Source of the DNA: a virus
IMG/VR virus record: IMGVR_UViG_3300021085_000017
Location: 28,116-92,115 of that record
Reading direction: 5' to 3' (one strand)
DNA: 64,000 bases
In this document: piece by piece, positions 2,984 to 60,454 of the stretch
How the letters are laid out: each line of letters begins with the position of its first letter
Position numbering within the stretch: position 1 is the first letter of the stretch
Position numbers and translations under genes: made by a program
Notes under the pieces: model-generated
What the model saw: only the letters and a program-made list of their open reading frames with translations
Database searches by the model: none
What the model was told of the DNA's origin: nothing

Positions 2984-3011
2984 GATGGGCTCCTCTAAGA
3001 TACAAGTATTT

Positions 3012-14600: not shown

Positions 14601-16195
14601 TAGCAACGCTTCCTCTAAATTTAACAGAAGCCGATGTTGGAAATCCAGCAACTATTACAGCAGTAGAAGATTATTTTAATGGAGTTATCGCTGATGGTGA
14701 TACAAACGCAGACTTTAATCTTGGTTTACATGAGATAGCGGCATACGAGTATGCTCTTGGTGGAAAAATGTCCATAACTGGAAAAGATGACCAAGAGTTT
14801 CAGATTGACAGAATCGCAAAGAGTTTCTATGGAGAAAGAAACGCAGAAATAATAGTAGAAGAATTACAAAATGAAGAAATTGGCGAGTTGTGGTCATCAG
14901 TAGGACACAATGCTTTAATAAATGGCAAATCATCATTTGTTAACAGTGAGATGCCAGCAGTTGATATTGGTAATGTATCTGATAATAGTGATATAATAAA
15001 CGAATCTGTAAATGAAGCAAGGGTTTTTAATCCAGAGACAAGAAGACTTGAAATAGAAAAGATACAAACTGGAACTCTAACAGCGACAGAAACACAAGAT
15101 GTTAAGACGTTGAATGAAGAGATTAATAGTGTAATCAATGAGGCTATTGAAACATATCCAACAACGTGGCCGAGAGACTTCACGGGACAAGTTTTAGAAA
15201 AGAAACAAGAAGAGTGGTTTGAAAACAGTGCGACAGTCTTAGATGAAAAGATAAAAGAAGCAGGAATAACAGTATCTGAGGCCGAAAGAACAGAGATGCT
15301 TCAAAAGATTGCTGAAAAGATTAGCAATGAAGGCAGAATAAGTGTACTGTCAGACACAGAATTTAAAAAAGTTGAGGGGTATGCAACAGCAATTAATACT
15401 ATTAATAATAACTCTAAATTGGGTAACAGAGGAGTAGTAGCCGAAACAGTTATAGCAAACGAAACAGTCACTGAAATAGCAACATTAAAAAGTGAGCATG
15501 AAAATCTTGTGGCAAACATGTATCCCAATTTGGATCCTGTCACACTTAAAGCAGACATGGACAGAAAAAGAGAAATAGAATTACAAATTGCTGAAAAAGA
15601 ATTAGCATTATCGGTTGAAAGTGCATCATATATAAGAACTATACCAGGAGAAGCAGGCACATATACGCATGTTCCAATAATGGAACCTGTTAATAGTGGA
15701 GTTACTTCGGCAGAACGTTCATTTTTGAAACAAGAATCTACTGGTGAATTTGTTCTTATTCCACCATCCGATGCCACAAGTGACCAGTTAGCAATGTATA
15801 ATGCAACTACAAATCAAGCAGAGCAAATAAATCAAGCAAATGCGATATACGATGCTATGACTCAAAATGTACCACGATTTACGGGTACAGATGACTTTGG
15901 TCCATATGAAGTAAATGATTACAATAATTTAGCAGATATATCATATGTAGATGCAAATGGTGATACTCAGACAATTAAAAATCCTAGTAACGAATTTGGA
16001 CTATATACAAATAGTTATGATGAAATGTATCCTGGTGTTATTGCAGACCACGAGACATTGATGCAAGATATTGCAAAATTGTTTCCTGATGTTTATGCCG
16101 AAACGCCATCACCACCATCAACTTCAGATGGCGGACCGCTAAAGGTTATAATGACTGTACCAAAGTTTTATATAAAAGATAAAGAGAATAATTGA
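11615..16195 (+). CDS. Very large virion structural protein, probably baseplate/hub
   Basis: The 1526-residue protein is not assigned to a T4 gene. Residues 1-300 are beta-rich with tail-protein character. From about 430 to 620 it is charged and helical (coiled-coil-like). A Gly-rich linker, GPAGGAGNGNGNLSGTG, lies near residue 825. The C-terminal 600 residues are helical, acidic and Gln/Asn/Thr-rich. Its place between gp53 and gp5 suggests it fills a hub or gp27-like role with large extensions, which is inference. The next gene starts two bases after its stop. Confidence 0.55.
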   Translation: MSGLKKLAEQYNYLYNELDEFDSYTYSLEWFVADKKSTREFQLQEAALAKTIANNGWPTTTDNVITIAKTGYTTEFNVTDLTVEAVGVGNSNYSKIAGTATKLEFTCTQVGNTSLAETLQTAVALCGYVSISDASYFMKINFIGYANGVPKTLNQTKVIPFKIRDYQNINTSTDVRGTTTVLNGTVLADTVVMNSDVSLSEFKFTYNRDKTLEKCLNNFFKMLNTEIHENNNTQLGSNLKHSYKYTFSEKFKREFGSGSMEGIDDNVQKDMTPKGTNDAVEIGTVKSGQAIYSTIEEICHVSEKLRNEMITDNAGYTKVLNITPYIVLKENGFNPIKGTQSYEVEYFIDYTLRLVEQNMPDYFTKTKNNEKNTRKIFDDGHVNKYYNFLFTGKNDQIIDFNISLDAELIKVFTSPNDVWSYEDYKKNNDTSVFITKEQEALIEKAQADFEESSRVFSEKEVSFNAINTRNKDFVDDSKTKILSEIANSTDEMSAQDVEDKFGEYTLEEIFREFGIKEPPAVEVQQSGRKGPNPKRLRMIGDLDVQKIWANKKSLDFAIKKAREAYEAAKTNKTTLNNAFIGLQEDVYANQLTQFSPDTQINESDNVFRDIRRFRGPQIILAEELGDNYITTTTGEEFKNILKAQMQNPITFQRLIQKKSKGGITTHSEAEPTDLALAKEKYYETKAGRLSMIYAQMTIKGDPYWLEGHMPPKTKDKIYNSTGKDEGAIGWAATTFNGYPHLVLESNKSSGVDENENVKITGLVMSLYAVRSITSSFSQGVFTQVLDMVKNSSAEFFPKTDVEVVEELGDGDGAIRVVAGTGAEGPAGGAGNGNGNLSGTGTTKVPLTADQQLAVDMALSNHMERNDGFPLGGAYGLGVNKTPSDNTFKKFVGDAFTTIGETVSGIFTEDPEEVAEDMIENSDEQMEILDEVNNPTVEVNPTQKLGQINPDLQLLDNTNRQNQALFYLENVKDMRAECAGGNQAVCTQLHKTKADLLATLPLNLTEADVGNPATITAVEDYFNGVIADGDTNADFNLGLHEIAAYEYALGGKMSITGKDDQEFQIDRIAKSFYGERNAEIIVEELQNEEIGELWSSVGHNALINGKSSFVNSEMPAVDIGNVSDNSDIINESVNEARVFNPETRRLEIEKIQTGTLTATETQDVKTLNEEINSVINEAIETYPTTWPRDFTGQVLEKKQEEWFENSATVLDEKIKEAGITVSEAERTEMLQKIAEKISNEGRISVLSDTEFKKVEGYATAINTINNNSKLGNRGVVAETVIANETVTEIATLKSEHENLVANMYPNLDPVTLKADMDRKREIELQIAEKELALSVESASYIRTIPGEAGTYTHVPIMEPVNSGVTSAERSFLKQESTGEFVLIPPSDATSDQLAMYNATTNQAEQINQANAIYDAMTQNVPRFTGTDDFGPYEVNDYNNLADISYVDANGDTQTIKNPSNEFGLYTNSYDEMYPGVIADHETLMQDIAKLFPDVYAETPSPPSTSDGGPLKVIMTVPKFYIKDKENN

Positions 16196-16196
16196 C

Positions 16197-17450
16197 ATGG
16201 CAGATAATACATTAAAACAATCACAAGATGAACAACATGCTAAAATGGCAAACCCAATGGTTCCTAAGTTGGGCAATATATACAAAGCAATTACAGTCAC
16301 AGAAACACCTTCTGGCGAATCACTAATTGACCCTATGGGACAAGGAAGAATTGCGGCATATATTCCAGCATTAGGAGAAAGTCCTGATAATCCAACGATA
16401 TTCAAACTTGCAAGAAGTTCATCTATATTTAATGTTCCAGATAAAACGGGAATAACTGTGCTTGTCTTTTTTGCAGATATTGATTCTACTAAAGACGCAT
16501 ATTGGTTTGCTATCGATAACCCAGTAGTAGATATAGTTGCTGGTGGTCCTTTAGGAAATCCACAAGTTGATGGCAGTGGTATAGGCGAAGGTGCTTATGC
16601 GGATGTTTCTGTTATGAAAGATTTTACAAAAGTAACAGATACAGAAGTAGACGGTGCTGAACTTCCCAACTCAGCGTTCAATAAAATACTTGCTGACCAA
16701 GGCACGTTGTCCGATGAACATAGAGGACCAACAACGACAAGTTCTTACAGAGATGCGGCATATGAGACAGTGCAACATGCAAAAGTTATGGGTTTCAAAA
16801 CATCTGGTGGTTCATCTGTTTCTATAGATGACGGAAGTATTGCAGATGACGGTACAATTCATGCAGAACAAATAAAGATAACAACATCTTCTGGTGCGGC
16901 AATCACATGTGATGGCGGCAACGACTTTATTTACATAGTGAATAGTACTGGTTCTGGATGGGTAGAAATCGGTGCTGGTGGTGAAGTCATGGTGTATGCT
17001 GAAGGCTCTTTAAACATGAGAACTCAAAAAGATTTTAACTTACGAGCGGACAAAAATATAAACATGGAAGCCGGAGAAGATATAAACATTCGTAGTTTCC
17101 GTAATACTAAAATTAACACAGATAAAGAACTACATTTAAGAAGTACAGGAACACAGTTCTTACAAAGTGAAGCAGGAATGAATATTAATGTTGGTGTTAA
17201 TTGTGTTGTATCAACTTATGGAGTATTGCATCTAAACGGACCATTAGCACCAGAATCAGAACTTATCTTAACTAGTGATATGCCAGATATAGAAGACTTA
17301 GAAGCAACAGAACTTAAAAAAACAATTGTATCTGAACTGCCAACACATGAACCTTTTATTAGACCACATGCTAAAGACCCAGACACAAGTAATTTTGCAA
17401 AATTAATGGCTAGTGATGATGGCTTAGATAAATCAGGATTAACAAAATGA
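16197..17450 (+). CDS. 5: Baseplate central spike protein gp5-like, without lysozyme domain
   Basis: Residues 40-115 fit the OB-fold that opens gp5/VgrG spikes (GRIAAYIPALGE and TVLVFFADID). From about 225 to 330 a run of alternating short strands follows, with phrases such as DFNLRADKNINMEAGEDINI, typical of the triple-stranded beta-helix needle. In T4 a GH24 lysozyme lies between these parts; here the central region is only a linker, and a lysozyme-like protein follows as a separate gene overlapping by four bases. The protein should form the membrane-piercing spike at the baseplate centre. Confidence 0.8.
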   Translation: MADNTLKQSQDEQHAKMANPMVPKLGNIYKAITVTETPSGESLIDPMGQGRIAAYIPALGESPDNPTIFKLARSSSIFNVPDKTGITVLVFFADIDSTKDAYWFAIDNPVVDIVAGGPLGNPQVDGSGIGEGAYADVSVMKDFTKVTDTEVDGAELPNSAFNKILADQGTLSDEHRGPTTTSSYRDAAYETVQHAKVMGFKTSGGSSVSIDDGSIADDGTIHAEQIKITTSSGAAITCDGGNDFIYIVNSTGSGWVEIGAGGEVMVYAEGSLNMRTQKDFNLRADKNINMEAGEDINIRSFRNTKINTDKELHLRSTGTQFLQSEAGMNINVGVNCVVSTYGVLHLNGPLAPESELILTSDMPDIEDLEATELKKTIVSELPTHEPFIRPHAKDPDTSNFAKLMASDDGLDKSGLTK

Positions 17451-39358: not shown

Positions 39359-41152
39359 ATGGCTAATTACGATGATGATGCTAACGTAACCAAACTAGAA
39401 TTAAATAAGTTATCGCCATCAATGTGCATGGCGAAATGGTTACAAGTTAGTTTACATCTACCACAAGGACGAACACACAGTTGTTATCATCCACCAACAC
39501 ATCCTATTCCATTAGATGAGTTGAAAGATAATCCAAACGCACTTCATAATACGAAATTCAAATTAGAAGAACGTAGGCAGATGAAAAATGGTGAGAGACC
39601 GAAAGGTTGTCAGTACTGTTGGAACGTAGAAGACGCAAACAAAGATGCATTAAGTGATAGACATTATCGTTCAAGTGAATGGTGGGTAAAAGATGCATGG
39701 GAAGAAGTTGTACAACAACCATGGGACCACGATATTAAGCCACGTTATGTAGAAGTAAACTTCAATCAGGCATGCAACTTTAAGTGTTCATATTGTTCAC
39801 CTCATCTTAGTACAGCATGGGAAGATGACATCAAACAACATGGGTCGTTTAGATTTTCTGATGGTGGTGGTCATAACAATATACAAGAACTTAAAACTAT
39901 TGGCTTGATGCCTTTAGAAGTTGCACGTAAAGACAATCCGTATATCGAAGCATTTTGGAAATGGTTTCCAGAAACGTATCCTAATCTGAAGATTTTTCGT
40001 ATGACAGGTGGTGAACCTCTCATGGACAAGAATACATTCAAAGTATTAGATTATATAAAAGAAAATCCAAATCCTGATTTAGAAGTTTCAATGACTACAA
40101 ACATGTGTCCACCTGACGATGCGTTGTTTGATAAGTTTATTGAGAAAGTAAAACTATTAGAAAAGCCAGTAATTGATGAGAATGACCCTACGGTTATACC
40201 AGTAGACTTCAAAGATTTGTTATTTAAAACACCACCACCGAATAAAAGAAGTGTCTTATTTTATGCAGTAGACCCAGGAGATGGAAGTTCATGGAACGAA
40301 TGGAAACAGTATATCATTGAAGAAACACTTCATGGTGTTGACCCATGGCTGATACAGCCAAATGTAGATACACTTCCATCATCTGAGATTAAACAGAAAT
40401 TTAAAGGTGTTGGTCCTTGTGAAGATGCAGATAATAATTCTTTTCTATATCTAAACAACTATGAAAAAGACAAACAATGGAATAAGTGGACACATCTATT
40501 TGAAAATGTTTCAGTTAAACATATTAGTGTGTTTATCAGTGTTGATGGTATAGGACCACAAGCAGAGTACATACGAGACGGACTAGATTGGGAAAAACTA
40601 AAGACAAACGTTGATAGGCTTCTTTCTGAGACAAGTAGAGTGAGTGTTACCTTTATCAATACATTTAATCTGTTGAGTATTCCATCACTACGTGGTTTCT
40701 TAGATTACATACTAGAACTCAGAGAAAAGTATGGTTATGTATATCAAGTAGACAATGGACATAAAGTATTACAACAAAAAATCTGGTTTGACGTTCCTTA
40801 CATGCGAGACCCAAGTTGGTTTAACATACAAGTAGCAGATGCAGATATGTTACAAATAATACAAGACAATATTGATTACATGAAAGAAAAAGTTTTACCA
40901 GACGAGGAATATGGAAAATCTTTTCTTGGTTTTAAAAATTACGAAGTATTAAAATTACAAAGAGATTTAGCATGGGCAGAACAAGGCATAGAAATAAGTG
41001 ATGATGACCTAAGTGATAGACTAATTAGATTTTATGAGTTCTTTTCTCAATATGATAAGAGACGTGGATTTGATTTCTTAGAAACATTTCCTGAATTTAC
41101 AGAGTTCTGGAATGAAGCGAAAGAAGAGTATGTAGAGAAATATGCACCATGA
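39359..41152 (+). CDS. Radical SAM protein 1, with N-terminal twitch-like motif
   Basis: The core cluster motif is CNFKCSYC (Cys139, 143, 146) and MTGGEP is the SAM-binding GGE motif. Before it lies Cys23-x13-Gly37-x4-Cys42 and a Cys84-x2-Cys87 pair, the spacing known for twitch/SPASM auxiliary iron-sulfur domains, which normally follow the core. The protein (597 residues) is longer than its paralogues by an insertion around 240-340. These enzymes make a 5'-deoxyadenosyl radical to attack unreactive C-H bonds. The substrate is unknown; the neighbours suggest a sugar or a glycan-linked group. Confidence 0.8.
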   Translation: MANYDDDANVTKLELNKLSPSMCMAKWLQVSLHLPQGRTHSCYHPPTHPIPLDELKDNPNALHNTKFKLEERRQMKNGERPKGCQYCWNVEDANKDALSDRHYRSSEWWVKDAWEEVVQQPWDHDIKPRYVEVNFNQACNFKCSYCSPHLSTAWEDDIKQHGSFRFSDGGGHNNIQELKTIGLMPLEVARKDNPYIEAFWKWFPETYPNLKIFRMTGGEPLMDKNTFKVLDYIKENPNPDLEVSMTTNMCPPDDALFDKFIEKVKLLEKPVIDENDPTVIPVDFKDLLFKTPPPNKRSVLFYAVDPGDGSSWNEWKQYIIEETLHGVDPWLIQPNVDTLPSSEIKQKFKGVGPCEDADNNSFLYLNNYEKDKQWNKWTHLFENVSVKHISVFISVDGIGPQAEYIRDGLDWEKLKTNVDRLLSETSRVSVTFINTFNLLSIPSLRGFLDYILELREKYGYVYQVDNGHKVLQQKIWFDVPYMRDPSWFNIQVADADMLQIIQDNIDYMKEKVLPDEEYGKSFLGFKNYEVLKLQRDLAWAEQGIEISDDDLSDRLIRFYEFFSQYDKRRGFDFLETFPEFTEFWNEAKEEYVEKYAP

Positions 41153-42555
41153 GTAGAAAGCCAGACACAGAATCATTTTTAGATTATAGAACTAGGGTAA
41201 TGGATCCTAAAAGTTCTTCGTTCTGTGGCGCAAAATGGCATAATGCAACTATATGGTTAGGACACGGACAGACAGTCAGTTGTCACTTGCCCGCTTCACA
41301 TGATATAAATGTTGAAGAGTTAAAAGATAATCCAACCGCAATACACAACACTTCGCACAAAAAGAAAATGCGTAAGATGATGCTTGAAGGCGAAAGACCA
41401 CCAGAGTGTTACAAATGCTGGGCAGTCGAAGACGAAGGACATGATAGAATATCTGACCGAGTTTTAAAGACTCGAATGTTCACTGACGAAGATTTAGATG
41501 AGATACCTTTGAAGAAATGGGATGATGATACCTTCTTAAGAACACTAGAGATATCATTTGACAAAGCCTGTAACTTTGCATGTTCATATTGTAATCCTTC
41601 ATTTAGTTCTACATGGGTGAAAGATATAAAAGACAACGGACCATACGACAATATCATTTCAGATGAAAGAGAACATTTTTCAAATTCTGCCGAATGGACA
41701 GTAAGTGCAGGTCGCACAGATGAAGAGAACCCATATATCTCTGCATTCTGGGAATGGTGGGAAGCAGATGGTGGATTGGTAGATACACTAGAGGCTATAA
41801 GAATTACAGGTGGCGAACCTATTATGCATCCAAGTGTGTGGAAATTGTTTGATTGGTTTAAGAATAATCCAGAACGTGGCAAGAATATGAGATTTGCTAT
41901 AAACTCAAATCTTGTTCCAGAAAAAGAAAAGACATTCCAAAGATTATTAGATGTGATAGATTATGTGCCACGGTTTGAAATGTTTACAAGTTGCGAAGCA
42001 ACTGGAATACAAGCAGAATATATACGTGATGGCATAGATTATGACAAGTGGTTAAGTAATTGTAAAAGACTATTAGAACAACCAAAGTTAAATAGAATGT
42101 ATATAATGATGACTATCAATGCATTGTGTCTGTGTTCAATAACAGACTTTATGGATGATATGTTAGATATGAGAGAATCAAATGCAGTTGGACCTATATT
42201 ATCATTGAATCCTGTTTATAATCCAGAGTTTCAAAGTCTGTCTACATTTCCTACATATATACTAGAACACTACCATGAAAAACTTAAAGCATGGTACGAT
42301 AGAAGAGCAAGTGAATTAGTAGACGTAGAAGAGGTACATGTCACAAGACTTATATATCTCTTAGAGAAAACAATACGTAATCCACATTCAGAAGAAGTAC
42401 TAAGAAAACGCCAAGGAGATTTCAAATCATTTTATATGCAATATGATAAGAGACGTGGCAAAGATTTTGTGTCAACATTTGACCCGATTGTAGTAGATTG
42501 GTATAACAGTTTGACACCAACAAGAGTATTCAATATAGAGGCGAATAATGGCTAG
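41149..42555 (+). CDS. Radical SAM protein 2, with N-terminal twitch-like motif
   Basis: The 468-residue protein repeats the plan of its neighbour: Cys26-x13-Gly40-x4-Cys45, Cys87-x2-Cys90 (ECYKCW), then the radical SAM motif CNFACSYC at 141-148 and ITGGEP. It is clearly a paralogue of the flanking genes and shares phrases such as SFSSTWVKDIKD. It overlaps both neighbours by four to eight bases. Confidence 0.8.
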   Translation: MSRKPDTESFLDYRTRVMDPKSSSFCGAKWHNATIWLGHGQTVSCHLPASHDINVEELKDNPTAIHNTSHKKKMRKMMLEGERPPECYKCWAVEDEGHDRISDRVLKTRMFTDEDLDEIPLKKWDDDTFLRTLEISFDKACNFACSYCNPSFSSTWVKDIKDNGPYDNIISDEREHFSNSAEWTVSAGRTDEENPYISAFWEWWEADGGLVDTLEAIRITGGEPIMHPSVWKLFDWFKNNPERGKNMRFAINSNLVPEKEKTFQRLLDVIDYVPRFEMFTSCEATGIQAEYIRDGIDYDKWLSNCKRLLEQPKLNRMYIMMTINALCLCSITDFMDDMLDMRESNAVGPILSLNPVYNPEFQSLSTFPTYILEHYHEKLKAWYDRRASELVDVEEVHVTRLIYLLEKTIRNPHSEEVLRKRQGDFKSFYMQYDKRRGKDFVSTFDPIVVDWYNSLTPTRVFNIEANNG

Positions 42556-44083
42556 AAAACACCAAGAGACACTTCATCAATATAAAGAACGAATCATTGA
42601 CCCTATTAGTAAGTCATACTGTGCCGCCAAGTGGTACAATGCTACTATCTGGCTGGGACATGGACAAACTACGAGTTGTCATCACCCACCGGGACATTGG
42701 ATTCCTTTAGAAGAACTTGAAAGTAATCCATCAGCGATTCATAATACGCCACATAAGAAAAAGATGCGTAAGATGATGCAAGAGGGTGAACGTCCAGCAG
42801 AGTGTGAGTACTGTTGGAAAGTTGAAGATATGGGAAAACAACATATATCTGACCGTGTGTTTAAGACTGAAATATTTAAAGACGAAGACATTGCTAAGAC
42901 TTCAACAATGCCATGGGAAGAGAATGTAAATCTAAAAACACTTGAGATTTCATTTGACCGAGCATGTAATTTTAAATGTTCATATTGTAATCCGGCATTT
43001 AGTACTGCTTGGGTGAAAGACATTAAAGACTTTGGTGGATATAAAAACATTCAATCAGATGGTAGAGGACACTTTGCCGATACTGCACCATATGCCGAAC
43101 CAGCAACAAGAAGACAAGAAGACAACCCATACATACAAGCATTTCATAAGTGGTGGGAAAGCGACTTAGCAGACTCTTTAGAAGAGATACGTATCACTGG
43201 TGGTGAACCTATCATGCATAAAGGCACATGGAAATTATTTGAATGGTTTAAAGATAATCCAGACAGAGGACAAGATATGCGTTTTGCTATTAACTCAAAT
43301 ATGTGTCCTGATACTCCTAAAGTTTTAGATAGACTTGTAAAAGAATCATGGCATATTCCACACTTAGAAGTGTATACAAGTATGGAAGCAACCGGCATTC
43401 AAGGTGAATACATCAGAGATGGACTTGACTATGACTTATGGATAAACAACATACACAGAGTCTTAAATGAAAGTAATGTAGAGAAACTACATATGATGAT
43501 GACTATTAACTCTCTTTGCCTAGATTCTATTACAGATTTTATGGACCAAATGCTTGACCTGAGAGAAACATACGGTCAAAAGGCACCAACGATGACGTTG
43601 AATATCTTAAGATTCCCATCATTCCAAAGTGCGGCAATACTACCAGAAGACATCAAAACATTCTACAAAGAGAAGTTAGATAATTGGTTTCACTCTGAAC
43701 GCCCACAAGAAATGATGAGTGACGGTGAGAAAGAAAGTGTTCGAAGATTGATTGATTACTTAGATATTGTTAAGACACCACATAAGAATACAGCAGAAAC
43801 ACCAAAGTTATATAACGACTTCAAGGTGTTCTTTGCACAGTATGATGTGAGAAGAAATAAAGATTTTGTAACTACATTTCCTGGACCATTAGCAGACTGG
43901 TTCGCATCTATAGATGCAGAAGTGCCATCAAAACAAGATATTCTTACTGGTGCAAAAACATCTTTTGTATATGATATAGATGATATTGACCCAGCAACAA
44001 CCAAAGAGTATGATGGTGGCGATGACACACATGAACAGAATGTACCCGGATGGAATACAGACACTGATACGTTAGGTGGATAA
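42548..44083 (+). CDS. Radical SAM protein 3, with N-terminal twitch-like motif
   Basis: The 511-residue protein has Cys25-x13-Gly39-x4-Cys44, CEYCWKVED, then CNFKCSYC and ITGGEP, in the same order as radical SAM 2, its closest relative. It has an acidic tail of about 50 residues after the shared KDFVTTF region, absent from copy 2. Its stop shares bases with the next start. Confidence 0.8.
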   Translation: MARKHQETLHQYKERIIDPISKSYCAAKWYNATIWLGHGQTTSCHHPPGHWIPLEELESNPSAIHNTPHKKKMRKMMQEGERPAECEYCWKVEDMGKQHISDRVFKTEIFKDEDIAKTSTMPWEENVNLKTLEISFDRACNFKCSYCNPAFSTAWVKDIKDFGGYKNIQSDGRGHFADTAPYAEPATRRQEDNPYIQAFHKWWESDLADSLEEIRITGGEPIMHKGTWKLFEWFKDNPDRGQDMRFAINSNMCPDTPKVLDRLVKESWHIPHLEVYTSMEATGIQGEYIRDGLDYDLWINNIHRVLNESNVEKLHMMMTINSLCLDSITDFMDQMLDLRETYGQKAPTMTLNILRFPSFQSAAILPEDIKTFYKEKLDNWFHSERPQEMMSDGEKESVRRLIDYLDIVKTPHKNTAETPKLYNDFKVFFAQYDVRRNKDFVTTFPGPLADWFASIDAEVPSKQDILTGAKTSFVYDIDDIDPATTKEYDGGDDTHEQNVPGWNTDTDTLGG

Positions 44084-44709
44084 TGAAAGTTTTAATAACG
44101 GCTTGTCATGGTAGAACAGGAACAACTATATTACAAGATATAATTACAAAAAAATCTGGTATTATAAATTATGGTGAAGGCATTGATATACACAATGGCG
44201 AAAGAGGATTTAACAATTCTATAGAAAAGTTTCGTCAAGCAGAAAACGGATGCTGTAAATTATTCTTTGACATGAGTTATCAAACAACTAGTGATGTAAA
44301 TTCCTGGTACAAGCCCATGGAGGTGCCGGATATCATACAGCCAAATTTGATTATCAATAGTTTCAGAGAAGATATATTTGACTTGTTTCTAAGTTGGCAA
44401 ATCTCTTACCATAATAATAAATGGAATGCTACAAATAAATTAAACTACCATAGTATTGAAGTGTTACATGTAGAAGAAACTGTAGATAAATTTGTCAAAG
44501 AGTTAAAACTTTATGAGAAAGATTTAGAAATATTAAGAGAGAATTTTAAAGTACTAAATATCTCATATGAAGATATCGTAAACAATAACGTTGATGATTT
44601 AGAATTCGATAATTATATTGGAGTTGCAAAACAAAATACGTTAGAAGAGAAAATAAGACTTGTTGATAATATAGACGAAGTAAAGGAACAGTGGCAAAAG
44701 TATGTTTGA
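44083..44709 (+). CDS. Sulfotransferase-like protein (P-loop)
   Basis: The 208-residue protein begins ITACHGRTGTTILQDII, a typical sulfotransferase 5'-phosphosulfate loop, and has NSFREDIFDLFLSWQISYH, where R and S positions fit the 3'-phosphate binding segment. Family enzymes move sulfate from PAPS to sugars or other acceptors. It is embedded between radical SAM genes, and an APS-kinase-like domain that could make PAPS is encoded at 57933-59231. Acceptor unknown. Confidence 0.65.
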   Translation: MKVLITACHGRTGTTILQDIITKKSGIINYGEGIDIHNGERGFNNSIEKFRQAENGCCKLFFDMSYQTTSDVNSWYKPMEVPDIIQPNLIINSFREDIFDLFLSWQISYHNNKWNATNKLNYHSIEVLHVEETVDKFVKELKLYEKDLEILRENFKVLNISYEDIVNNNVDDLEFDNYIGVAKQNTLEEKIRLVDNIDEVKEQWQKYV

Positions 44710-45940
44710 CTATGGTGAAATAAAACAGTTGGATTTAGAGGCAAGTAGTCTTTGCAATGCTGAGTGCCCATCATGTGGTCGTAGAGCAAGTGGTGGCTTG
44801 AAAAATACTATTATGACCGAGACTTATGTGAGTTTAGAACAAGCAAAAGAATGGTTTACAGAAGACTTCATTAAGGGATTACGAATGTTATCTATGTGTG
44901 GTAACTATGGTGACTCTATGACTAATCCAGATTTAATTCCTATTTTGAAATATTTTAGGTCTTGTAATCCAGATATTGAACTTTACATGAATACAAACGC
45001 AAGTGGCAGAGATGCAGAGTTCTGGCAAGACTTAGGTAATATTTTTAAACATAAAGGTTGTCTAGTGTTCAGTGTTGATGGACTTGAAGATACTAATTGG
45101 ATATATCGTAAAGGCACTCACTGGGATAAAATTATGACGGCTATGACAAACTACATATCAACTGGTGCAGAAGCCAGATGGGAGTTTCTTGTATTTCGCC
45201 ACAATCAACATCAGATAGAAGAAGCAACTGAACTATCAAAGAAGTTAGGATTTAAACAGTTCTATGCAAAGAAGGCAATGGGGTTTACTAACTTCACTGA
45301 TTCTTCTGGCAAATGGGGACATGATATGAAAGTCCACGGACAAGAAGGTCATTTACAATACACTATCAAACCACCCATTGGTATAGAACTTGAACAAAGA
45401 AAATGGGATTCAGAACCAATGCCAGAACCAGATAGTTTGGAAACTGGATATTTAGAAGATATAAAAAAACAATTGGCAAAGTCTGTTGTTCCTCTAACAC
45501 CTATCAAATGGCACCATAATCCAACAAGAGAATGGAAATTAGATAAAACAGTTCAGTTATCAGAGTATGATAAAAAGTTGAGTGAATATGATATCAACTG
45601 CGAAGCCATAGCACATAAAAAGATTTTTGTAAACAGTTATGGAATGGTTTTTCCATGTTGCTACTTAGCATCTATATATGATGACCAATACGGCCAAGGT
45701 GATACAGTAGCGGCATTATTAGCATTTATAAATAGATATGGAAAAGATAGCATATCATTACAACATACATCTCTTAAAGATATAATAGGTGGCGAGATGT
45801 ACACAACAGGATACCTCGAGTCATTTGAAGATAGAGATATACGAAACAAAAGATTAAAAGCATGTTCTGTCTTTTGTGGCAAAGAAACAGAAATTTCGAA
45901 AACAAAACAGAGCATGTTATCGGAGAATAATCTAATATGA
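44702..45940 (+). CDS. Radical SAM protein 4, canonical order with C-terminal twitch/SPASM-like motif
   Basis: The cluster motif CNAECPSC is at Cys18, 22, 25 near the N-terminus. The C-terminal part contains C-x13-G-x4-C (from CEAIAHKK to MVFPCC) and a final CSVFC pair, the usual SPASM/twitch arrangement. This is the opposite domain order to the five other radical SAM proteins here. It has 412 residues. It overlaps the sulfotransferase by eight bases and the next gene by four. Confidence 0.8.
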   Translation: MFDYGEIKQLDLEASSLCNAECPSCGRRASGGLKNTIMTETYVSLEQAKEWFTEDFIKGLRMLSMCGNYGDSMTNPDLIPILKYFRSCNPDIELYMNTNASGRDAEFWQDLGNIFKHKGCLVFSVDGLEDTNWIYRKGTHWDKIMTAMTNYISTGAEARWEFLVFRHNQHQIEEATELSKKLGFKQFYAKKAMGFTNFTDSSGKWGHDMKVHGQEGHLQYTIKPPIGIELEQRKWDSEPMPEPDSLETGYLEDIKKQLAKSVVPLTPIKWHHNPTREWKLDKTVQLSEYDKKLSEYDINCEAIAHKKIFVNSYGMVFPCCYLASIYDDQYGQGDTVAALLAFINRYGKDSISLQHTSLKDIIGGEMYTTGYLESFEDRDIRNKRLKACSVFCGKETEISKTKQSMLSENNLI

Positions 45941-47340
45941 AAATTATACCAATCTGGAAAGATGACGGGAGTTGTGCTGAAGAAAGTGAGAACAAAACTT
46001 TCTGTATGGCGCCGTGGACACACACTTACATTTCACCACAAGGTGAGAGAAGAATGTGCTGTGCTTCACGTGAAGAACACCAGTTTCAGAAGCAATACAT
46101 TGATGCATCAAATGATGATTCGTATGGTATAGAAAAGAAAGTCAAAACTAAAGCAGATGATTTTAATCCACTTACATTAGAAGAACACTGGAACTCACCA
46201 TACATGATGGACATAAGAAAGAAACTTATGGCAGGTGAAACTATTCCACAGTGTGACGTTTGTAACGATGACATCCTAAGTTTGAGTTCATATAAGAAAT
46301 GGTTTACCGGTCATCTATTCAAGCATAAGATTGAAGAAGCATTTGAGAAGACAGATGATGAGGGTAGAACATCTATGCCTACTATCTCATTTGATTATCG
46401 CTTTAGTAATCTATGTAACTTTAAGTGTAGAATGTGTGGAGAATTATTGAGTTCAAGTTGGGAAGCAGAAAAGAAGACACACAAGTTATGGTCACCTGAA
46501 GAACATCCTTTTATGATACCAGATGTGAAGAAGAAAATGAATTCATTTACTGTTGATGTTGTAGAGCCAGAGTTTAGAAAAGCAATTGATGAAGGCATAG
46601 TTGAAGAAATATATTGGGTTGGTGGTGAACCACTCATGTATGAAATACATTGGGAAACATTAGAAAATATGACACAGGCAGGAACTGCAAAGGACTGTTT
46701 TCTAAGATACAATTCTAACTTGTCCCGTGTAACATACAAAGGTAAAAACTTGTATGACTATTTGCCACAGTTCAAAGATTGGATGATGTGTGCAAGTATT
46801 GACGGTACAGGTAAGATTGGTGAATTCATTCGAACTGGTTTAGTATGGGAAGAGTGGTTAGAAAACTTTAAACAAGGAGTTGCATTGCCTGGTGGTAAAG
46901 ACAAGATGTTATTAGACTTGACTATTACTGGACCTGGTATGTTCTCATTAAAAGAATTATTTGATTTGAGCCAAGAACTTGGTGTAAGAATGGAAACAAA
47001 GATGATGTTTGCATTCCATCCAGATATGGTATTCTCTCCATTTGCATGGCCTAGACACATACTTGATAAAGTAATACAAGAAAACTTAGATTACATGGAA
47101 CCAATAGCAGAGAAGAACCAAGAAACGTTGATTAATACATTACGTGAAATGAAATCGAGGCCAACATTTGCACAACAATGGAATGACCACCACAAGCCAT
47201 CAGTTGGCGGTAGACAGTTCCAAGCAAAATTAAGTGAAATAAGAAAAGATAAACAAATTGGTATGCCTACAATCGAAGACATTTACCAAGAGCATTGTCC
47301 TGAATTGTATGATTGGTGGATGGAGTGTTGGGATGAGTAA
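45937..47340 (+). CDS. Radical SAM protein 5, with N-terminal twitch-like motif
   Basis: The 467-residue protein has FCMAPW: Cys23-x12-Gly36-x4-Cys41, then CDVC, and the radical SAM motif CNFKCRMC near residues 160-167, with VGGEP. The N-terminal part closely resembles a SPASM domain (PW and CC features) placed before the core. It is more distant from copies 1-3 and closer to copy 6. Confidence 0.8.
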   Translation: MKIIPIWKDDGSCAEESENKTFCMAPWTHTYISPQGERRMCCASREEHQFQKQYIDASNDDSYGIEKKVKTKADDFNPLTLEEHWNSPYMMDIRKKLMAGETIPQCDVCNDDILSLSSYKKWFTGHLFKHKIEEAFEKTDDEGRTSMPTISFDYRFSNLCNFKCRMCGELLSSSWEAEKKTHKLWSPEEHPFMIPDVKKKMNSFTVDVVEPEFRKAIDEGIVEEIYWVGGEPLMYEIHWETLENMTQAGTAKDCFLRYNSNLSRVTYKGKNLYDYLPQFKDWMMCASIDGTGKIGEFIRTGLVWEEWLENFKQGVALPGGKDKMLLDLTITGPGMFSLKELFDLSQELGVRMETKMMFAFHPDMVFSPFAWPRHILDKVIQENLDYMEPIAEKNQETLINTLREMKSRPTFAQQWNDHHKPSVGGRQFQAKLSEIRKDKQIGMPTIEDIYQEHCPELYDWWMECWDE

Positions 47341-48625
47341 GACATTCTGTAAACTACCTTGGATCCATTTAGCGAGTCACCCACATGGTGGAACTACATT
47401 ATGTTGTGTTGCTGACCATCACAATGGCATATCTAGGTCTAGGAATTATACAAAACATTCAAATACCAATCCCAGAGAAGTAGATGGAGATATATTTTTA
47501 GACTTAAAAAATCATTCGATAGAAGAGATTATGAATGGTGATTCATATAATCAAGTTCGACTAGAGATGTTAAATGGTGACGAACCAGAAGCATGTAAGA
47601 GATGTTATAGAGAAGAAGAGTCTGGTGTATGGAGTAAAAGAGCAAAAGAAAATCAACTTTATGATACATTCACACTTGAAGAGGCGAAAAGCAGAACTAA
47701 TGATGATGGTTCATTAAACAAAGTTGAGTTAGAATTTATAGAACTAAGATTAGGGAATATATGTAACGCAAAATGTAGGTCATGTAATCCTTGGAGTAGT
47801 AGTAAATGGATTACAGATTACAATAAAATGAGAAAGAAGTTTACTACACTTCATCTTTTTGATAAAGAAATGAATCAATTTGATTGGCCGGAACAAGAAA
47901 GATTTTGGGATGACCTATTTGAAAAATCAAAGAATGCAAAAGTATTCTATATTAATGGTGGCGAGCCAACACTAATCAAAGAGCATTTTAAATTTCTACA
48001 AAGAATGATTGATGCTGGTAGAACTAATGTAAAATTATGGTATAACATCAACTGTACACAAATGACCGATGAGATAATCAACATATGGAGACAGTTTGAT
48101 GAAGTTGAAGTTGGCTTGAGTATTGACGATGTTGAAGCAAGAAACGAATTCATAAGACATCCAACTAAGTGGAAAGATGTTTCGAATACTATAGATATGT
48201 TAATAGCCGCAAGAGATGGTGAAGAATTGAAGTTTTATGAGAAATCTAATATATCGATAAACATAACACAGACTGTTACTTGGATGAACTATTTCTACTT
48301 AGATGAAATGATGGATTTCGCTTCAGAGAAAGATATAAGAGTACATCATAACTTTGTAACTCAGCCAGAAGAATTTTCTGTAAATGTTTTGCCATTAGAA
48401 CTTAGAAAAGAAATAAACGATAGAATGGAACCATTCTTTCCAGACGATTGGGATCCTGGTAAGATGGCAATGATGAGGCGTAATGAACAAAAGCCCACAG
48501 ATTTGAAGTTGTTACAAAAAGCAATGGACTACACTTCTGAACTAGATAGATTAAGAAATGAAAACTTTCAAATAACGTTCCCAGAATTATGGGACGAAAT
48601 ACGAGATTACGTAGATGGCGATTAG
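47333..48625 (+). CDS. Radical SAM protein 6, with N-terminal twitch-like motif
   Basis: The start at 47333 (MSKTFCKLPW) is chosen because it overlaps the previous stop and begins right at the conserved Cys motif; the frame is open further upstream inside the previous gene. Cys6-x12-Gly19-x4-Cys24 and CKRCYREEE precede the core motif CNAKCRSC near 144-151 and NGGEP. The protein has 430 residues from this start. Confidence 0.8.
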   Translation: MSKTFCKLPWIHLASHPHGGTTLCCVADHHNGISRSRNYTKHSNTNPREVDGDIFLDLKNHSIEEIMNGDSYNQVRLEMLNGDEPEACKRCYREEESGVWSKRAKENQLYDTFTLEEAKSRTNDDGSLNKVELEFIELRLGNICNAKCRSCNPWSSSKWITDYNKMRKKFTTLHLFDKEMNQFDWPEQERFWDDLFEKSKNAKVFYINGGEPTLIKEHFKFLQRMIDAGRTNVKLWYNINCTQMTDEIINIWRQFDEVEVGLSIDDVEARNEFIRHPTKWKDVSNTIDMLIAARDGEELKFYEKSNISINITQTVTWMNYFYLDEMMDFASEKDIRVHHNFVTQPEEFSVNVLPLELRKEINDRMEPFFPDDWDPGKMAMMRRNEQKPTDLKLLQKAMDYTSELDRLRNENFQITFPELWDEIRDYVDGD

Positions 48626-49481
48626 AAACGAAAGCAACGAAACGATAGATGACAAACGAGATTATTCTCCATTTGTAAAACAAGTTTTACAACATTCAAA
48701 TAAAAATCCTCTAACAGACGATGGATATTACGAAATGGACGATGGTTGGAATAATGAGTTACAAACAAGAAGTACCATGTCGCCTATAGAACCAAACGAC
48801 AAGATTGTACTTTTAGTAGGTGATAGTTTTACATTCGGTGATGGAATGTTACACAAGGATACATTTGGTGCTTTACTACAAAATACAAAACTCTTTGAAA
48901 ATTATAAAGTAATAAACATTGCTCAACGTGGCGCATCAAATAGTTTGATTAATCTAATACTTACTCGATGGTGTAATGTATATGGAAGTCAAGTAGAAAT
49001 GGTAATTATTGGATACACTTTTCGTTCCAGAAGGCTCTATTTCGCATCAGCAGATAAATTACCAGAGTTTGGTTGTTGTACCAATATCAATCCGGGACAT
49101 GTACCAACAGGAAGATTTGATAAGCCTTGGCTAAAAGAAGTATACAAAGCCAACTTGACGTTGAGTACATTTGAGAATGACACAAATGATTTTGAGACAA
49201 ACGTACTTATGACTAAAGGCTTAGGCAAGATACACAACTTTAAAACATATTGGTGGTCTATCGAAGAAAATGAAAGATGGAACCAAGAATCAAAAAGACT
49301 TGAAAATAACACAGAATTAGTCGATGATGATAATTTTAAGTTTATAAACATTGCTAAACAGTTTGGTAAGACATACGAAGAAGAATTAGTATACCACATA
49401 TCAGCAGAAGATGGACATTGGAGTAAAAACGGTCACTCTGCCATTGCAGATAGAATTATTGAAGCGATAGATGAATGTTAA
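48615..49481 (+). CDS. SGNH-family hydrolase/acyltransferase-like protein
   Basis: The 288-residue protein has VLLVGDSFTFGDG, the GDS block with the catalytic serine, GASNS as a likely block II glycine, and DGHWSKNGH, the DxxH block near the C-terminus. SGNH enzymes remove or add acyl groups on sugars. It resembles the C-terminal half of the fusion at 57933-59231. It overlaps both neighbours, so it is part of the island operon. Confidence 0.7.
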   Translation: MAIRNESNETIDDKRDYSPFVKQVLQHSNKNPLTDDGYYEMDDGWNNELQTRSTMSPIEPNDKIVLLVGDSFTFGDGMLHKDTFGALLQNTKLFENYKVINIAQRGASNSLINLILTRWCNVYGSQVEMVIIGYTFRSRRLYFASADKLPEFGCCTNINPGHVPTGRFDKPWLKEVYKANLTLSTFENDTNDFETNVLMTKGLGKIHNFKTYWWSIEENERWNQESKRLENNTELVDDDNFKFINIAKQFGKTYEEELVYHISAEDGHWSKNGHSAIADRIIEAIDEC

Positions 49482-55555: not shown

Positions 55556-56445
55556 AAATACTAATAACTGGCGCCTCTGGATTTATCGGTCAAGCATTAG
55601 CAAAGCAACTAGAGAATAGTGAGCATGATGTTAGATTAACCGATATACATGAGCCTGCTAACACATACGGACACATTTTTGACACATGTGATTTGACTGA
55701 CAATGAAAGAGTGGCATCTTTACCTGAAGCAGATATAGTTTATCATTTGTGTGCATACAATAATACCGCACACTTCTATACAAAGCCATTGTCTGTTATA
55801 GATAGTACATTGACTCCTACAGTAAATCTAATTCATAGATACAAGCATTCGAAAACGAAGTTCGTATATGCAAGTAGCAGTGAGATTTATGCTGGTGGTG
55901 TCCAACTGGGTATCACAGAAATACCGACACCAGAAATCAATGTAGGTGTAATCAACGAAATAGACAACACAAGATGGAGTTATGCTGGTAGTAAACTTAT
56001 GGGTGAGATTGCGGTACATGCCGCACATGAAGAATACGGACTAGAGTATGTTATTATTAGATATCACAATGCGTATGGCAAAGACCAAAAGAACCATTTT
56101 ATTCCTGAATATGCTGATAGACTAAGAGAAGGTGATAATGTATTATTTGGACACGATGAAACTCGTGCGTTTATCTATATCGATGATGCCGCAGAACTAA
56201 CTCTTGCAGTTGGAGAAAAACTCAACAACGATACAATTCATATTGGTAATCCAATAGAGAGTTCGATAGGAGACGTAGCAAAGATTGTGCGTGAGATTAT
56301 TGGAGTTGATAGAGAACCAACATACAAAAACGCACCTGCTGGAAGTGTTTCCAGAAGATGCGCCGATGTTTCTAAAATGTTGTCTTTAGTTGGTGATTAT
56401 GAATTCACTTCACTTAAAGACGGGTTAATCAAAACACTAACTTAG
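55552..56445 (+). CDS. NAD-dependent sugar epimerase/dehydratase (extended SDR)
   Basis: The 297-residue protein begins MKILITGASGFIGQALAKQL, the extended-SDR NAD-binding loop, with YASSSEIYAGG supplying the serine and SYAGSKLMGE the YxxxK pair. YHNAYGKDQ and FIYIDDAAE are typical of UDP-sugar epimerases and dehydratases. Its stop shares two bases with the convergent lipoprotein gene (TTAG). It is the last gene of the plus island. Confidence 0.85.
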   Translation: MKILITGASGFIGQALAKQLENSEHDVRLTDIHEPANTYGHIFDTCDLTDNERVASLPEADIVYHLCAYNNTAHFYTKPLSVIDSTLTPTVNLIHRYKHSKTKFVYASSSEIYAGGVQLGITEIPTPEINVGVINEIDNTRWSYAGSKLMGEIAVHAAHEEYGLEYVIIRYHNAYGKDQKNHFIPEYADRLREGDNVLFGHDETRAFIYIDDAAELTLAVGEKLNNDTIHIGNPIESSIGDVAKIVREIIGVDREPTYKNAPAGSVSRRCADVSKMLSLVGDYEFTSLKDGLIKTLT

Positions 56446-57857
56446 TCCTTCTTTGAAATTAGATGCTTAGTTTGGTGTGGCATCAATAACTCTAAGTTTG
56501 ATATATCACCATTGTTTAGTAATACAGAACCATTAGTGCGTGGTCTATGTGCATGTAAGAATACATCCATATCACCATCATCGTCTAAGTCTCTAAACTT
56601 AATTGAGAGAATGTGATTGTTCCATGGGTTAGCCTCAGAAGACGCAACATAGCCCTCGGGTGCTGGAAGCACTTCAATTATACCATGAGATTTGAACTTC
56701 TTATTGCCCAAGTTTTCAATTACACTTACCGCAGTACCGCCATAAAGATATCCTGCTCTACTTAACACCAAATCTAAGTCTCCGTCACCATCTATGTCTC
56801 CCATTGATGCTTCTGGTACATTAAAGTAAACTTCACCATGTTGTGGTAGATGTGTAGTGTTGTGTTTGCTAAAGTTACCTCTGCCGTCATTCCAGATAAT
56901 TCCAGTAATCATACAATGTTTACATTCTGATTTTTCTAATCCACCTGTGAACAAATCTAAATCACCATCACCATCCAGGTCACCAAGTTCAATTCCAAAA
57001 GCAAAATGACCACCACATCCACGTTTCTTAAGAAAGCCTGTGCCGTCATTCATCCAGCACATCAATCTATGAGATTGTCCATGTGAAGTTGGACCAGTAA
57101 AAGTAACAACAACGTCCATGTCACCATCGCCATCAATGTCGCCATTAGCACCACCGTGACTGAAACCCATAAAGTTAGAATGACTTAGGTGTGTATCAGA
57201 TGATTCCAACCAAGTACCATTCGGCTGACTTAGATAATAACTATCAGGCCAACCATCATCACCACCAGTTCCGTGGTCGTTGATGAAGAAATCTAAAATA
57301 CCATCATTGTTATAATCGGCAACTTGTGCCCCTTTACCTAAAGATAAACCTGGGTCTTCACGGTTATCAATGATAAGGGCAGACCTTTTAAGTGGCCCAC
57401 TTTCTGAACCCAACCATAACTCAGGCATTTGCTTTGGTCCTGGACATGCTTTTGATTCGCATAGATGTCCTGTTCGTTGATATCTTTTTTTCTCTTCTTC
57501 CGTGGTCTCATACTTCATACCACCGATGTATAGAAAGTCTGTGTAACCATCTTTATTAAAGTCATTAGCATGCCATGTATCTTTATGCATGAACCTGTAA
57601 AATCCAACAGTTGGTGCAGAATACCATCCTTTATTGGGGTCGTTCTCAGTATCAATACCCGCTCTCGCTGTCACTGTTGTTTTACCAGATTTTGACTTAA
57701 TAGCATTGCCATTTTCTGGACATTTGTAAACCCAGTATCCACCGGCATCAACTTTCACTGCCTCGACTCCATTTCCACATGAAGGTTGGGCTAGTGTTGC
57801 GCCTGTACATCCCCATAGCGACATTGCTACTAGAGTAAATGCTAACATCTTGTTCAT
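56442..57857 (-). CDS. Secreted FG-GAP/VCBS repeat lipoprotein-like protein
   Basis: The 471-residue protein starts with a hydrophobic signal sequence, LAFTLVAMSLWGC, with Cys17 as a possible lipid site, or cleavage after LAQ. The rest is a run of Ca-binding FG-GAP-type blades: DFNKDGYTDF, DYNNDGILDF, DIDGDGDMDV, DLDGDGDLDL, DIDGDGDLDL and DLDDDGDMDV, likely forming a beta-propeller. Such proteins act outside the cytoplasm as adhesins or binding domains; this is unusual for a phage gene. It has a perfect sigma70 promoter and Shine-Dalgarno GAGAGG, and is opposite in strand to the island. Confidence 0.8.
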   Translation of the reverse strand: MNKMLAFTLVAMSLWGCTGATLAQPSCGNGVEAVKVDAGGYWVYKCPENGNAIKSKSGKTTVTARAGIDTENDPNKGWYSAPTVGFYRFMHKDTWHANDFNKDGYTDFLYIGGMKYETTEEEKKRYQRTGHLCESKACPGPKQMPELWLGSESGPLKRSALIIDNREDPGLSLGKGAQVADYNNDGILDFFINDHGTGGDDGWPDSYYLSQPNGTWLESSDTHLSHSNFMGFSHGGANGDIDGDGDMDVVVTFTGPTSHGQSHRLMCWMNDGTGFLKKRGCGGHFAFGIELGDLDGDGDLDLFTGGLEKSECKHCMITGIIWNDGRGNFSKHNTTHLPQHGEVYFNVPEASMGDIDGDGDLDLVLSRAGYLYGGTAVSVIENLGNKKFKSHGIIEVLPAPEGYVASSEANPWNNHILSIKFRDLDDDGDMDVFLHAHRPRTNGSVLLNNGDISNLELLMPHQTKHLISKKD

Positions 57858-57891: not shown

Positions 57892-57919
57892 ATTATAGCA
57901 CTGATTCGGGATTTGTCAA
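57892..57919 (-). promoter_or_regulatory. Consensus sigma70 promoter, TTGACA-N16-TATAAT, for the FG-GAP gene
   Basis: Both hexamers are perfect on the minus strand, TTGACA at 57919-57914 and TATAAT at 57897-57892, with 16 bases between them. It lies about 35 bases before the ATG of the FG-GAP lipoprotein gene and is independent of the upstream genes. Confidence 0.8.
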
Positions 57920-57932: not shown

Positions 57933-59231
57933 TTAGTACCAGTTTTTTGATTTGTTATACAATGTATCTGCTATCTTACCCGTGCCCTTTGTGTTCCAAT
58001 GCCCATCATTCTTTATTTTGTAAATGTCATCCCATAGTCTAAAGTCTTTGATATCACCCCAAATAACATTTTTATGAATACTTATAAAGTTATTAATAAG
58101 GTACCGCTCTTTTTCAGACAGCAAGTCAAACGTATCGAAAAAGAATACATTAAATCCATAAGTATTTGACATATGTATAATTGACATAATGAACGATTCT
58201 AACTTTGCCATTGAATCTTTTTTAGACACCAACTGTTCAAATCGTTTATGTGCATATTTAAAAACATTATTCATTTCTTTTGGTACAGATGAGGGGACAT
58301 AGAAGAATGGATGTAAACTTCTGCCTGGTCTACAGACTTCGGCTAAGTCATAAACTGTATCATCCCATCCCACACTAGGGTCAGTTGGCCAGTAGTTTTC
58401 TCTCATAATATCAGATATGCCAACATAAACTGTGTCTACTTTTTTACCATATGAATTACACCATTGTTGTAAACGTAAAAGAGAAAATGTATTATTCGCT
58501 CCTGGCAGGGATAAATTAAAACATGAATACTCATCTGAGTTTACATGATTACTAAATTGACTTGCTAAATCATCTTCTCTTTTTAATCCATGACCAAAGA
58601 TAAAACTATCACCTAGAAATAGTATATGTTTGTTTTTGCTAATAGTTTCTTCATTTATTATACTTCTGGAATGATAATCGTTCTCCCACTTCTCTTCACC
58701 AACAACTTCGCCTTCATCATTTTTAACTTCAGATGCAAAGAAGCCATTGTGTTGCCACCAACAATCAGGTCTAGCAAATGAACTCCACTTTTGTAAATCG
58801 TGGTGAAACTTACAATAGATATCAGAACTCTTTATTATACTTGATAGGTTATCGGTGTTAACATTCTTTTCGCTATCCCACCAATCAACTTCCTTGCTTG
58901 ATGGATACTCAAACATTTGATTAGTATCTTCGTACCTGCTCTCTTGTATAGTATTTAAAAATATACTATAGTCAGCATCAAATATTTTTCTTGTTTCATT
59001 AGTAGGACAAACAAAGTCAACAACAACAGTAAAGCCTTGAGAAACTAACTCATCAGCCATATCTCTCATTCTTTTTGCTTGCCTTAATCTACCTTCTGGT
59101 GAAAAGTCCCAGTCATTTAATCTTTTTCTTTCTTCATCTGCATTTATTCTTTCTGCATCTAAGATAGTTCCTAACTTGTCTGCTAGTGTAGTTTTGCCAC
59201 TGCCCGGCAGTCCAAAGATTAATATCTTCAT
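57933..59231 (-). CDS. Fusion: APS kinase-like P-loop kinase plus SGNH hydrolase-like domain
   Basis: The 432-residue protein begins ILIFGLPGSGKTTLADKLG (P-loop at 7-15), followed by RINADEERKRLNDWDFSPEG, which resembles the D-x-x-R and DLGFS regions of adenylylsulfate kinase (CysC), and GFTVVVDFVCPTNETRKIF, like the later ISP-type strand. From about residue 200 an SGNH domain follows: LFLGDSFIFGHG, then DGHWNTKGTGKI near the end. The second domain resembles the gene at 48615. The fusion is not a standard enzyme; a general nucleotide kinase remains possible. Confidence 0.65.
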   Translation of the reverse strand: MKILIFGLPGSGKTTLADKLGTILDAERINADEERKRLNDWDFSPEGRLRQAKRMRDMADELVSQGFTVVVDFVCPTNETRKIFDADYSIFLNTIQESRYEDTNQMFEYPSSKEVDWWDSEKNVNTDNLSSIIKSSDIYCKFHHDLQKWSSFARPDCWWQHNGFFASEVKNDEGEVVGEEKWENDYHSRSIINEETISKNKHILFLGDSFIFGHGLKREDDLASQFSNHVNSDEYSCFNLSLPGANNTFSLLRLQQWCNSYGKKVDTVYVGISDIMRENYWPTDPSVGWDDTVYDLAEVCRPGRSLHPFFYVPSSVPKEMNNVFKYAHKRFEQLVSKKDSMAKLESFIMSIIHMSNTYGFNVFFFDTFDLLSEKERYLINNFISIHKNVIWGDIKDFRLWDDIYKIKNDGHWNTKGTGKIADTLYNKSKNWY

Positions 59232-60454
59232 CTTGTGTTTCCATAATGATTGACTTCTATGTTATCATTGCCTATAAACTTACGCCACGGGTCAACTACT
59301 ACTGAACCATCTGGTATATCACAATACAACTTATCATTATCATCACCCTCTTCTTGCATATACTTGTAAGTTGTACTTGCACTGTGAGCCAATAAAAACA
59401 CACACGCACTCTCAGGTTGATTATCATCACCTGTTAATGGGTCTACATATGTTACTTTGTTTCCACGTTCTTCTAAGTAATGACCAATCAACATACTATA
59501 ACTGCCGTCTAGGTATGGAACTCCTGGCTTATATGCTTTGCCATGAATCACAATAGGCAAGTTTCTTTCACTAGAATAATACTCTAATCGTTTTGCTAAG
59601 TTGTCTGCTTGTATCTCTCGTGCATTCATAATTGCATCAAACAAGTCGTAACCTAAATCTAACTCATCTGCCATATAACGCAATGCAATGTTATCACGTG
59701 GATGACAACCGCCACCATCTCCCATACCAGCAGTCATGTATTGTGGTCCCATGATACGCATTGTGGATTTAGCAAGAGCATTAGTTACGACATCAACGTT
59801 TATGTTGCCTTGCTTCTCGGCTACGTCTTGTATCATATTCACTAGACCAATCTTGGCACTAATGAATGTATTGTAGAACACTTTAATACACTCACATTCA
59901 TCCCATGTACCAATCTCGTATCTTGGTTCGTTTTCCATTATAGACTTGTAGAAGTCTACTAGTTCTTTTGCATCACCTGTTTCACTTCCGTCTTCGGTAC
60001 CAATCATAACCATTTCTGGATTAATCATGTCCCATGCCACTGAACCCATTGCGATTAAGTATGGATTGTATACAAATCTTGTATTAGTCACATGCTTTAC
60101 AAATTCTCTTCTGACAGTACCAGGAAGAACAGTAGAGATAAGAACAAGCAACTGTTTCTTATTCATATGTTTGTTTGCTCTTTGTATAACATCAATGACA
60201 GTATCATAACCAAAATCTTTTGGTTTCAAATGGGCAGTTGGTGCATTGCCATCATATGATTTGTCGTGTGGAGTAGGAACTGCAATGAATACTATATCTC
60301 TATCTTTAACAGCCTCTGATATCGTAGTAAACATAGTAACATATCTGGTATCTTTAATTTCTATATCATATCCGGTCACGTCATGTCCTTTTTGTGAAAC
60401 CACTTCTGCACATGGCATTCCTAATTTTCCAACACCTATAAAACCAATCTTCAT
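59228..60454 (-). CDS. UDP-sugar dehydrogenase-like protein (full length)
   Basis: The 408-residue protein has KIGFIGVGKLGMPCAEVV at the NAD-binding start, DIVFIAVPTPHDK, and GDGGGCHPRDN at the active site, where the usual CxPKD is CHPRD: the nucleophile cysteine is kept but the lysine is replaced by arginine. The C-terminal half contains VIHGKAYKPGVPYLDGS, the conserved nucleotide-sugar binding segment. It overlaps the kinase-SGNH gene by four bases. It likely makes a uronic acid or related sugar; substrate unknown. Confidence 0.75.
   Translation of the reverse strand: MKIGFIGVGKLGMPCAEVVSQKGHDVTGYDIEIKDTRYVTMFTTISEAVKDRDIVFIAVPTPHDKSYDGNAPTAHLKPKDFGYDTVIDVIQRANKHMNKKQLLVLISTVLPGTVRREFVKHVTNTRFVYNPYLIAMGSVAWDMINPEMVMIGTEDGSETGDAKELVDFYKSIMENEPRYEIGTWDECECIKVFYNTFISAKIGLVNMIQDVAEKQGNINVDVVTNALAKSTMRIMGPQYMTAGMGDGGGCHPRDNIALRYMADELDLGYDLFDAIMNAREIQADNLAKRLEYYSSERNLPIVIHGKAYKPGVPYLDGSYSMLIGHYLEERGNKVTYVDPLTGDDNQPESACVFLLAHSASTTYKYMQEEGDDNDKLYCDIPDGSVVVDPWRKFIGNDNIEVNHYGNTR

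Follow-up and report, generated by a model that had tools for sequence, protein, structure and literature searches.

A phage gene joining an APS-kinase-like kinase module to an SGNH-fold domain

Introduction

The P-loop kinase module of PHROG 10255 (Pfam AAA_33 / APS_kinase) usually occurs in phages either alone or together with an HxGH nucleotidyltransferase, to which it is fused or next to which it lies. When fused, it forms the N-terminal part of a two-domain protein that has an NMN-adenylyltransferase-like HxGH enzyme at its C-terminus; such fusions are present in the cultured Stenotrophomonas phages Bhz60 and DLP_6, where they are annotated as 'kinase' or hypothetical. SGNH-like proteins are also found in phages, among them the stand-alone proteins of DUF6071 (PF19547), a family of unknown function whose members are about 215 amino acids long. 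Enzymes with the SGNH fold include TesA, the GDSL esterases, and the O-acetyltransferase PatB, all SGNH/GDSL hydrolases. Pelagimyophages have host-recognition clusters that contain glycosyltransferases and radical-SAM cassettes (PMC7029224).

Here we describe a phage gene in which the kinase module is N-terminal, as in the nucleotidyltransferase fusions, but is followed by an SGNH domain instead of the HxGH enzyme. The sequence analyzed (the window) is a 64,000-nucleotide stretch that covers positions 28116-92115 of a virus record 92,115 bases long.

Results

The fusion gene is intact and lies in a glycan/radical-SAM cluster

T4-like structural genes, which we read from their sequences as including those for capsid, portal and baseplate proteins, occupy the record up to the start of the window and continue through the first 35 kb of the window itself. 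The fusion gene (Table 1) is located in the large hypervariable cluster of this T4-like phage, which begins at 36 kb and encodes several radical-SAM proteins, a cupin, a DegT-type aminotransferase, a C-methyltransferase, an AdoMet decarboxylase, two sugar-nucleotide dehydrogenase-family proteins and an NAD-dependent epimerase. Several radical-SAM genes follow one another at 39359-48625, and the product of 41149-42555 passes the cut-off of NCBIfam NF033640 ('twitch domain-containing radical SAM').

An earlier note on this DNA had proposed that two domains are joined in one 432-residue protein, while raising the concern that two genes had been wrongly fused. The intact frame, the domain matches and the predicted folds described below agree with the proposal. 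The reading frame is unbroken from its ATG, which overlaps the stop codon of the upstream dehydrogenase gene by four bases (ATGA), and there is no usable start ahead of the SGNH core: no in-frame ATG, GTG or TTG occurs between codons 106 and 276. Because the catalytic GDSF is encoded by codons 207-210, the whole SGNH domain can therefore be made only as part of the fusion. The gene is a genuine joining of two known, mobile phage modules; it is probably lineage-specific, and its product is probably a cytosolic enzyme.

Table 1. Features of the fusion gene and its surroundings, in window coordinates
Feature	Position	Strand	Evidence or remark
Kinase-SGNH fusion gene	57933..59231	(-)	432 aa; single ATG ORF, no internal start codons 106-276
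Kinase module, residues 1-138, APS-kinase-like P-loop fold	58818..59231	(-)	Pfam/PHROG, AlphaFold, Foldseek, conserved residues
Walker A / P-loop GLPGSGKT, residues 7-14	59190..59213	(-)	Sequence; conserved across 36 kinases
Linker (about residues 139-164) and SGNH domain (about 165-432)	57936..58817	(-)	AlphaFold; Foldseek
SGNH block I GDSF, nucleophile Ser209	58602..58613	(-)	Gly and Ser invariant, alignments A4, A10
Block III region GISDIMR (271-277), Arg277	58401..58421	(-)	Alignment A10
Block V DGHW, Asp409 and His411	57996..58007	(-)	His invariant, Asp nearly invariant, alignment A4
UDP-glucose/GDP-mannose dehydrogenase family gene	59228..60454	(-)	Pfam UDPG_MGDP_dh; PHROG 9148 1e-103; 4-base overlap with fusion
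Predicted sigma-70-like promoter TTGACA-16-TATAAT, between fusion and FG-GAP gene	57892..57919	(-)	12/12 match; kept in relative G003
FG-GAP repeat protein gene, downstream neighbour	56442..57857	(-)	Pfam FG-GAP_3; collinear in G003
Stand-alone SGNH paralogue, 288 aa	48615..49481	(+)	E=5e-16 to SGNH half of fusion

The N-terminal half is a phage kinase module

The kinase half matched PHROG 10255 'kinase' with E=2e-27, and its matches to Pfam AAA_33 (2e-11) and APS_kinase (3e-8) each exceeded the respective cut-off. An AlphaFold model built from a 36-sequence alignment had a pLDDT of 92.9 and a pTM of 0.87, with a final helix at residues 126-138; when it was compared with the PDB using Foldseek, APS kinases ranked at the top and gluconate kinase was also among the best matches. 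Every column that is invariant across the 36 kinases is retained. The profile match and the active-site motifs (GLPGSGKT, NADxxR, NDWDFSPEGR, DFVCPT and EDTNxMF) place it within PHROG 10255, whose fold it has in common, and on the predicted model it is a complete phage kinase module. An anti-phage defence role was also considered but found no support, PADLOC having given weak P-loop matches only.

APS kinases are the best fold match, with similar P-loop, D-x-x-R and FS(P)E-R segments. However, the phage module is shorter, and it scored 27.6 bits against the APS-kinase equivalog TIGR00455, for which the cut-off is 138.7. The two also differ in the segment of human APS kinase that reads EEN-VRR, to which LRQ-AKR aligns in the fusion. 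Within this stretch Gln51 is invariant in the phage kinase family, as judged from the 36-kinase alignment; the Asn of the E-N-x-R-R segment in APS kinases is presumably the residue that binds APS. With a score so far below the curated cut-offs and a differing aligned stretch, the label 'APS kinase' is not warranted on sequence grounds.

The C-terminal half has an SGNH fold with an altered block III

When searched alone, the SGNH half had no match in Pfam or PHROG. A profile built from its relatives reaches solved GDSL esterases, and it is more distantly related to SGNH proteins that come mostly from planctomycete genomes. Within the window it resembles the stand-alone protein encoded at 48615 (E=5e-16, 32% identity over 113 amino acids), as the earlier note had claimed. 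The two halves were modelled as separate domains because combined full-length alignments seemed to misplace the SGNH rows. The SGNH model (pTM 0.75, core pLDDT about 90) has low confidence at residues 137-164 and about 279-323 of the fusion protein. Its alpha/beta/alpha fold matched GDSL esterases, TesA and PatB in the PDB by Foldseek (prob 1.00, TMt up to 0.76). Structure prediction, suggested earlier as a check, thus gave both a kinase fold and an SGNH fold, each matched to solved enzymes.

Like the SGNH/GDSL hydrolases, to which it is about 10-13% identical, the domain keeps the nucleophile Ser209 in block I, Gly244 in block II, and the Asp-x-His pair Asp409 and His411 in block V (alignments A4 and A10). 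Unlike them, it follows an N-terminal kinase and lacks the canonical block-III Asn (GxND), the sequence being GISD in the fusion and GYTF in the 48615 protein; Arg277 lies in this region and does not vary across the 11 aligned phage proteins (A10). Because the Asn is missing, we file the domain as an SGNH fold rather than as a proven canonical SGNH hydrolase, and from its sequence we regard hydrolase activity as uncertain.

DUF6071 proteins have the same block-I pattern and a conserved Arg, and they sit in the same kind of gene cluster (loci L018 and L078); unlike the fusion they stand alone, and the fusion protein did not match the DUF6071 model. Members of this Asn-less, Arg-bearing family of SGNH-like phage proteins are encoded at 2457-3098 and 5273-6004 of L018, 3002-3664 and 5132-5998 of L078, 13218-14105 of L096, and 48615-49481 of the window. 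Two of these are DUF6071 proteins.

The kinase usually has a nucleotidyltransferase partner

A survey of the kinase recovered 373 loci, which reduced to 185 distinct modules, nearly all from viral contigs; the counts refer to loci retained by the search, a sample biased to close relatives of the queries. Within it, 80 of the 185 modules are fused to an HxGH nucleotidyltransferase and 49 adjoin a separate one, while six adjoin a separate SGNH-like gene and another 49 have neither partner, some being truncated by contig ends. Only one is fused to an SGNH domain, namely that of the window. Examples of the NMN-adenylyltransferase-like HxGH domain fused to or behind the kinase lie at 4992-5732 of L132, 4001-4732 of L133 and 5986-6765 of L021, with many more elsewhere. 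The GRxQPxHxGH motif was found neither in the fusion nor in any adjacent ORF.

The earlier note knew of no standard enzyme with this pairing and called for a search of public genomes for the same architecture. That statement holds: no second kinase-SGNH fusion was found in 50,697 phage records or among the 185 kinase modules, and we found no description of one in the literature searched. With the SGNH half alone as query, a direct search of viral contigs gave no relative, and neither did tblastn in phages. The kinase and SGNH halves are each common in phages, and their fusion is so far unique.

In six other sequences, which represent about three lineages, an SGNH-like gene adjoins the stand-alone kinase gene and overlaps it slightly. 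In L018, L295-L297 and L078 the SGNH-like gene lies directly before the kinase, and this gene is conserved at 56-71% identity across L018 and L295-L297. In L022 a GCSLT-type gene comes immediately after the kinase, overlaps it by 4 bases and separates it from its nucleotidyltransferase, an arrangement that parallels the fusion. This gene had no match in the profile libraries; we class it as SGNH-like solely on its motifs and on how it aligns with one other ORF of this type. Because SGNH-like genes are frequent in these clusters and some adjacency is expected by chance, the adjacency is only suggestive of joint function. A NodU-like carbamoyltransferase-type gene precedes the SGNH gene in L295-L297 (the profile match was tested on L295), and carbamoyltransferase-looking genes of the NodU type occur among the SGNH and kinase genes of L295-L298, L078 and L022.

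A collinear relative carries the kinase without the SGNH half

In the relative G003 (IMGVR_UViG_3300031608_001091), a dehydrogenase gene, a kinase gene and an FG-GAP (lipoprotein) gene occur in the same order as in the window. Its kinase is 133 amino acids long, with no SGNH half behind it, and is sister to the fusion kinase with support of 99/86; over residues 1-112 the two are 73% identical, with a dN/dS of about 0.16. The G003 copy of the promoter-like TTGACA-16-TATAAT overlaps the end of the kinase gene. The simpler reading is that the window lineage gained the SGNH domain, because kinases without it are the rule; the alternative is that the SGNH half was lost in G003, where the kinase gene ends inside the promoter.

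When the dehydrogenase was used to look for further collinear loci, L195 was the only one of 80 with a kinase, which lies about 5 kb away and is encoded on the other strand; the dehydrogenase-kinase pair thus looks restricted to this phage group. A search of viral contigs with single-protein patterns gave no relative of the downstream FG-GAP protein. SGNH-like and methyltransferase genes have been exchanged between the otherwise collinear clusters of the window phage and the relative, whose locus L096 has SGNH-like genes at 6973-7719 and 15374-16243 that are absent from the window.

Discussion

The reading we favour, by a little over an even chance, is that the fusion is a real two-domain protein in which a captured SGNH domain and the kinase are both active and are coupled on the same or a neighbouring intermediate. 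On this proposal, the window lineage would have acquired an SGNH gene at the 3' end of its kinase gene. The kinase would phosphorylate a small metabolite that bears a hydroxyl group, for instance a sugar or nucleotide-type precursor, and the SGNH half would remove or transfer an acyl group on that or a neighbouring intermediate; tethering would set the ratio and location of the two activities, and the end product would serve to modify a glycan of the phage or of the host surface. It is plausible that both halves serve one glycan-tailoring route, the fusion being surrounded by genes for a sugar-nucleotide dehydrogenase, an epimerase, an aminotransferase and a C-methyltransferase. Against this, the usual partner of the kinase is a nucleotidyltransferase and not an SGNH protein.

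The same observation favours a neutral fusion, in which an SGNH cassette happened to be inserted in frame after the kinase gene and both domains work on unrelated substrates, so that their linkage has no functional meaning. The coming and going of SGNH and methyltransferase genes between clusters, as in L096, and the SGNH-like gene that in L022 parts the kinase from its nucleotidyltransferase are consistent with this explanation; the recurrence of SGNH genes beside the kinase, and their conservation in L018 and L295-L297, argue against it, and we consider it rather unlikely.

It is likewise doubtful that the SGNH half is no hydrolase but either an acyltransferase with a modified active site or a binding domain that presents substrate to the kinase. 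The replacement of the block-III Asn by Ser together with the invariant Arg, the PatB O-acetyltransferases among the fold matches, and the two related phage proteins in DUF6071 all point this way, but the nucleophile Ser, the block-II Gly and the Asp-x-His pair are retained.

More specifically than the favoured reading, the protein could be a glycan-tailoring enzyme with two functions, of a kind not described before: an ATP-dependent small-molecule kinase and an SGNH-type acyl hydrolase or transferase, whose active site is non-canonical and contains an Arg, would act sequentially on one precursor and replace the usual kinase-nucleotidyltransferase pairing; we give this version a low probability.

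That the kinase half is an APS kinase making PAPS for a putative sulfotransferase encoded at 44083, with the SGNH half incidental, is improbable. APS kinases lead both its fold and its sequence matches, and the 44083 protein carries a GRTGTT motif, which occurs in sulfotransferases, but the score against the NCBIfam cut-off, the LRQ-AKR segment and the invariant Gln51 all speak against it. By eye the product of 44083-44709 (208 amino acids, GRTGTT near its start) resembles a sulfotransferase; this identity found no support in any profile library searched or in PDB sequences. Finally, although a single contig carries the fusion, an assembly chimera of two genes is highly improbable, since the joint is in frame and at the domain boundary, the G+C contents of the two halves are alike (0.34 and 0.33), and an independent contig has the two neighbouring genes in collinear order.

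The gene illustrates how the surface-modification clusters of phages assemble enzymes from interchangeable modules. The fusion links two widespread phage families of unknown function, namely the kinase module that resembles APS kinases and the SGNH-like proteins that carry an Arg close to block III, and so offers a handle for guessing the pathway common to both. That the kinase is so often tied to an HxGH nucleotidyltransferase may be of wider importance than the fusion itself, since it suggests that the kinase product is normally activated with a nucleotide. In phage Bhz60 a NADAR-domain gene is next to the kinase, a hint that NAD or nucleotide metabolism may be involved.
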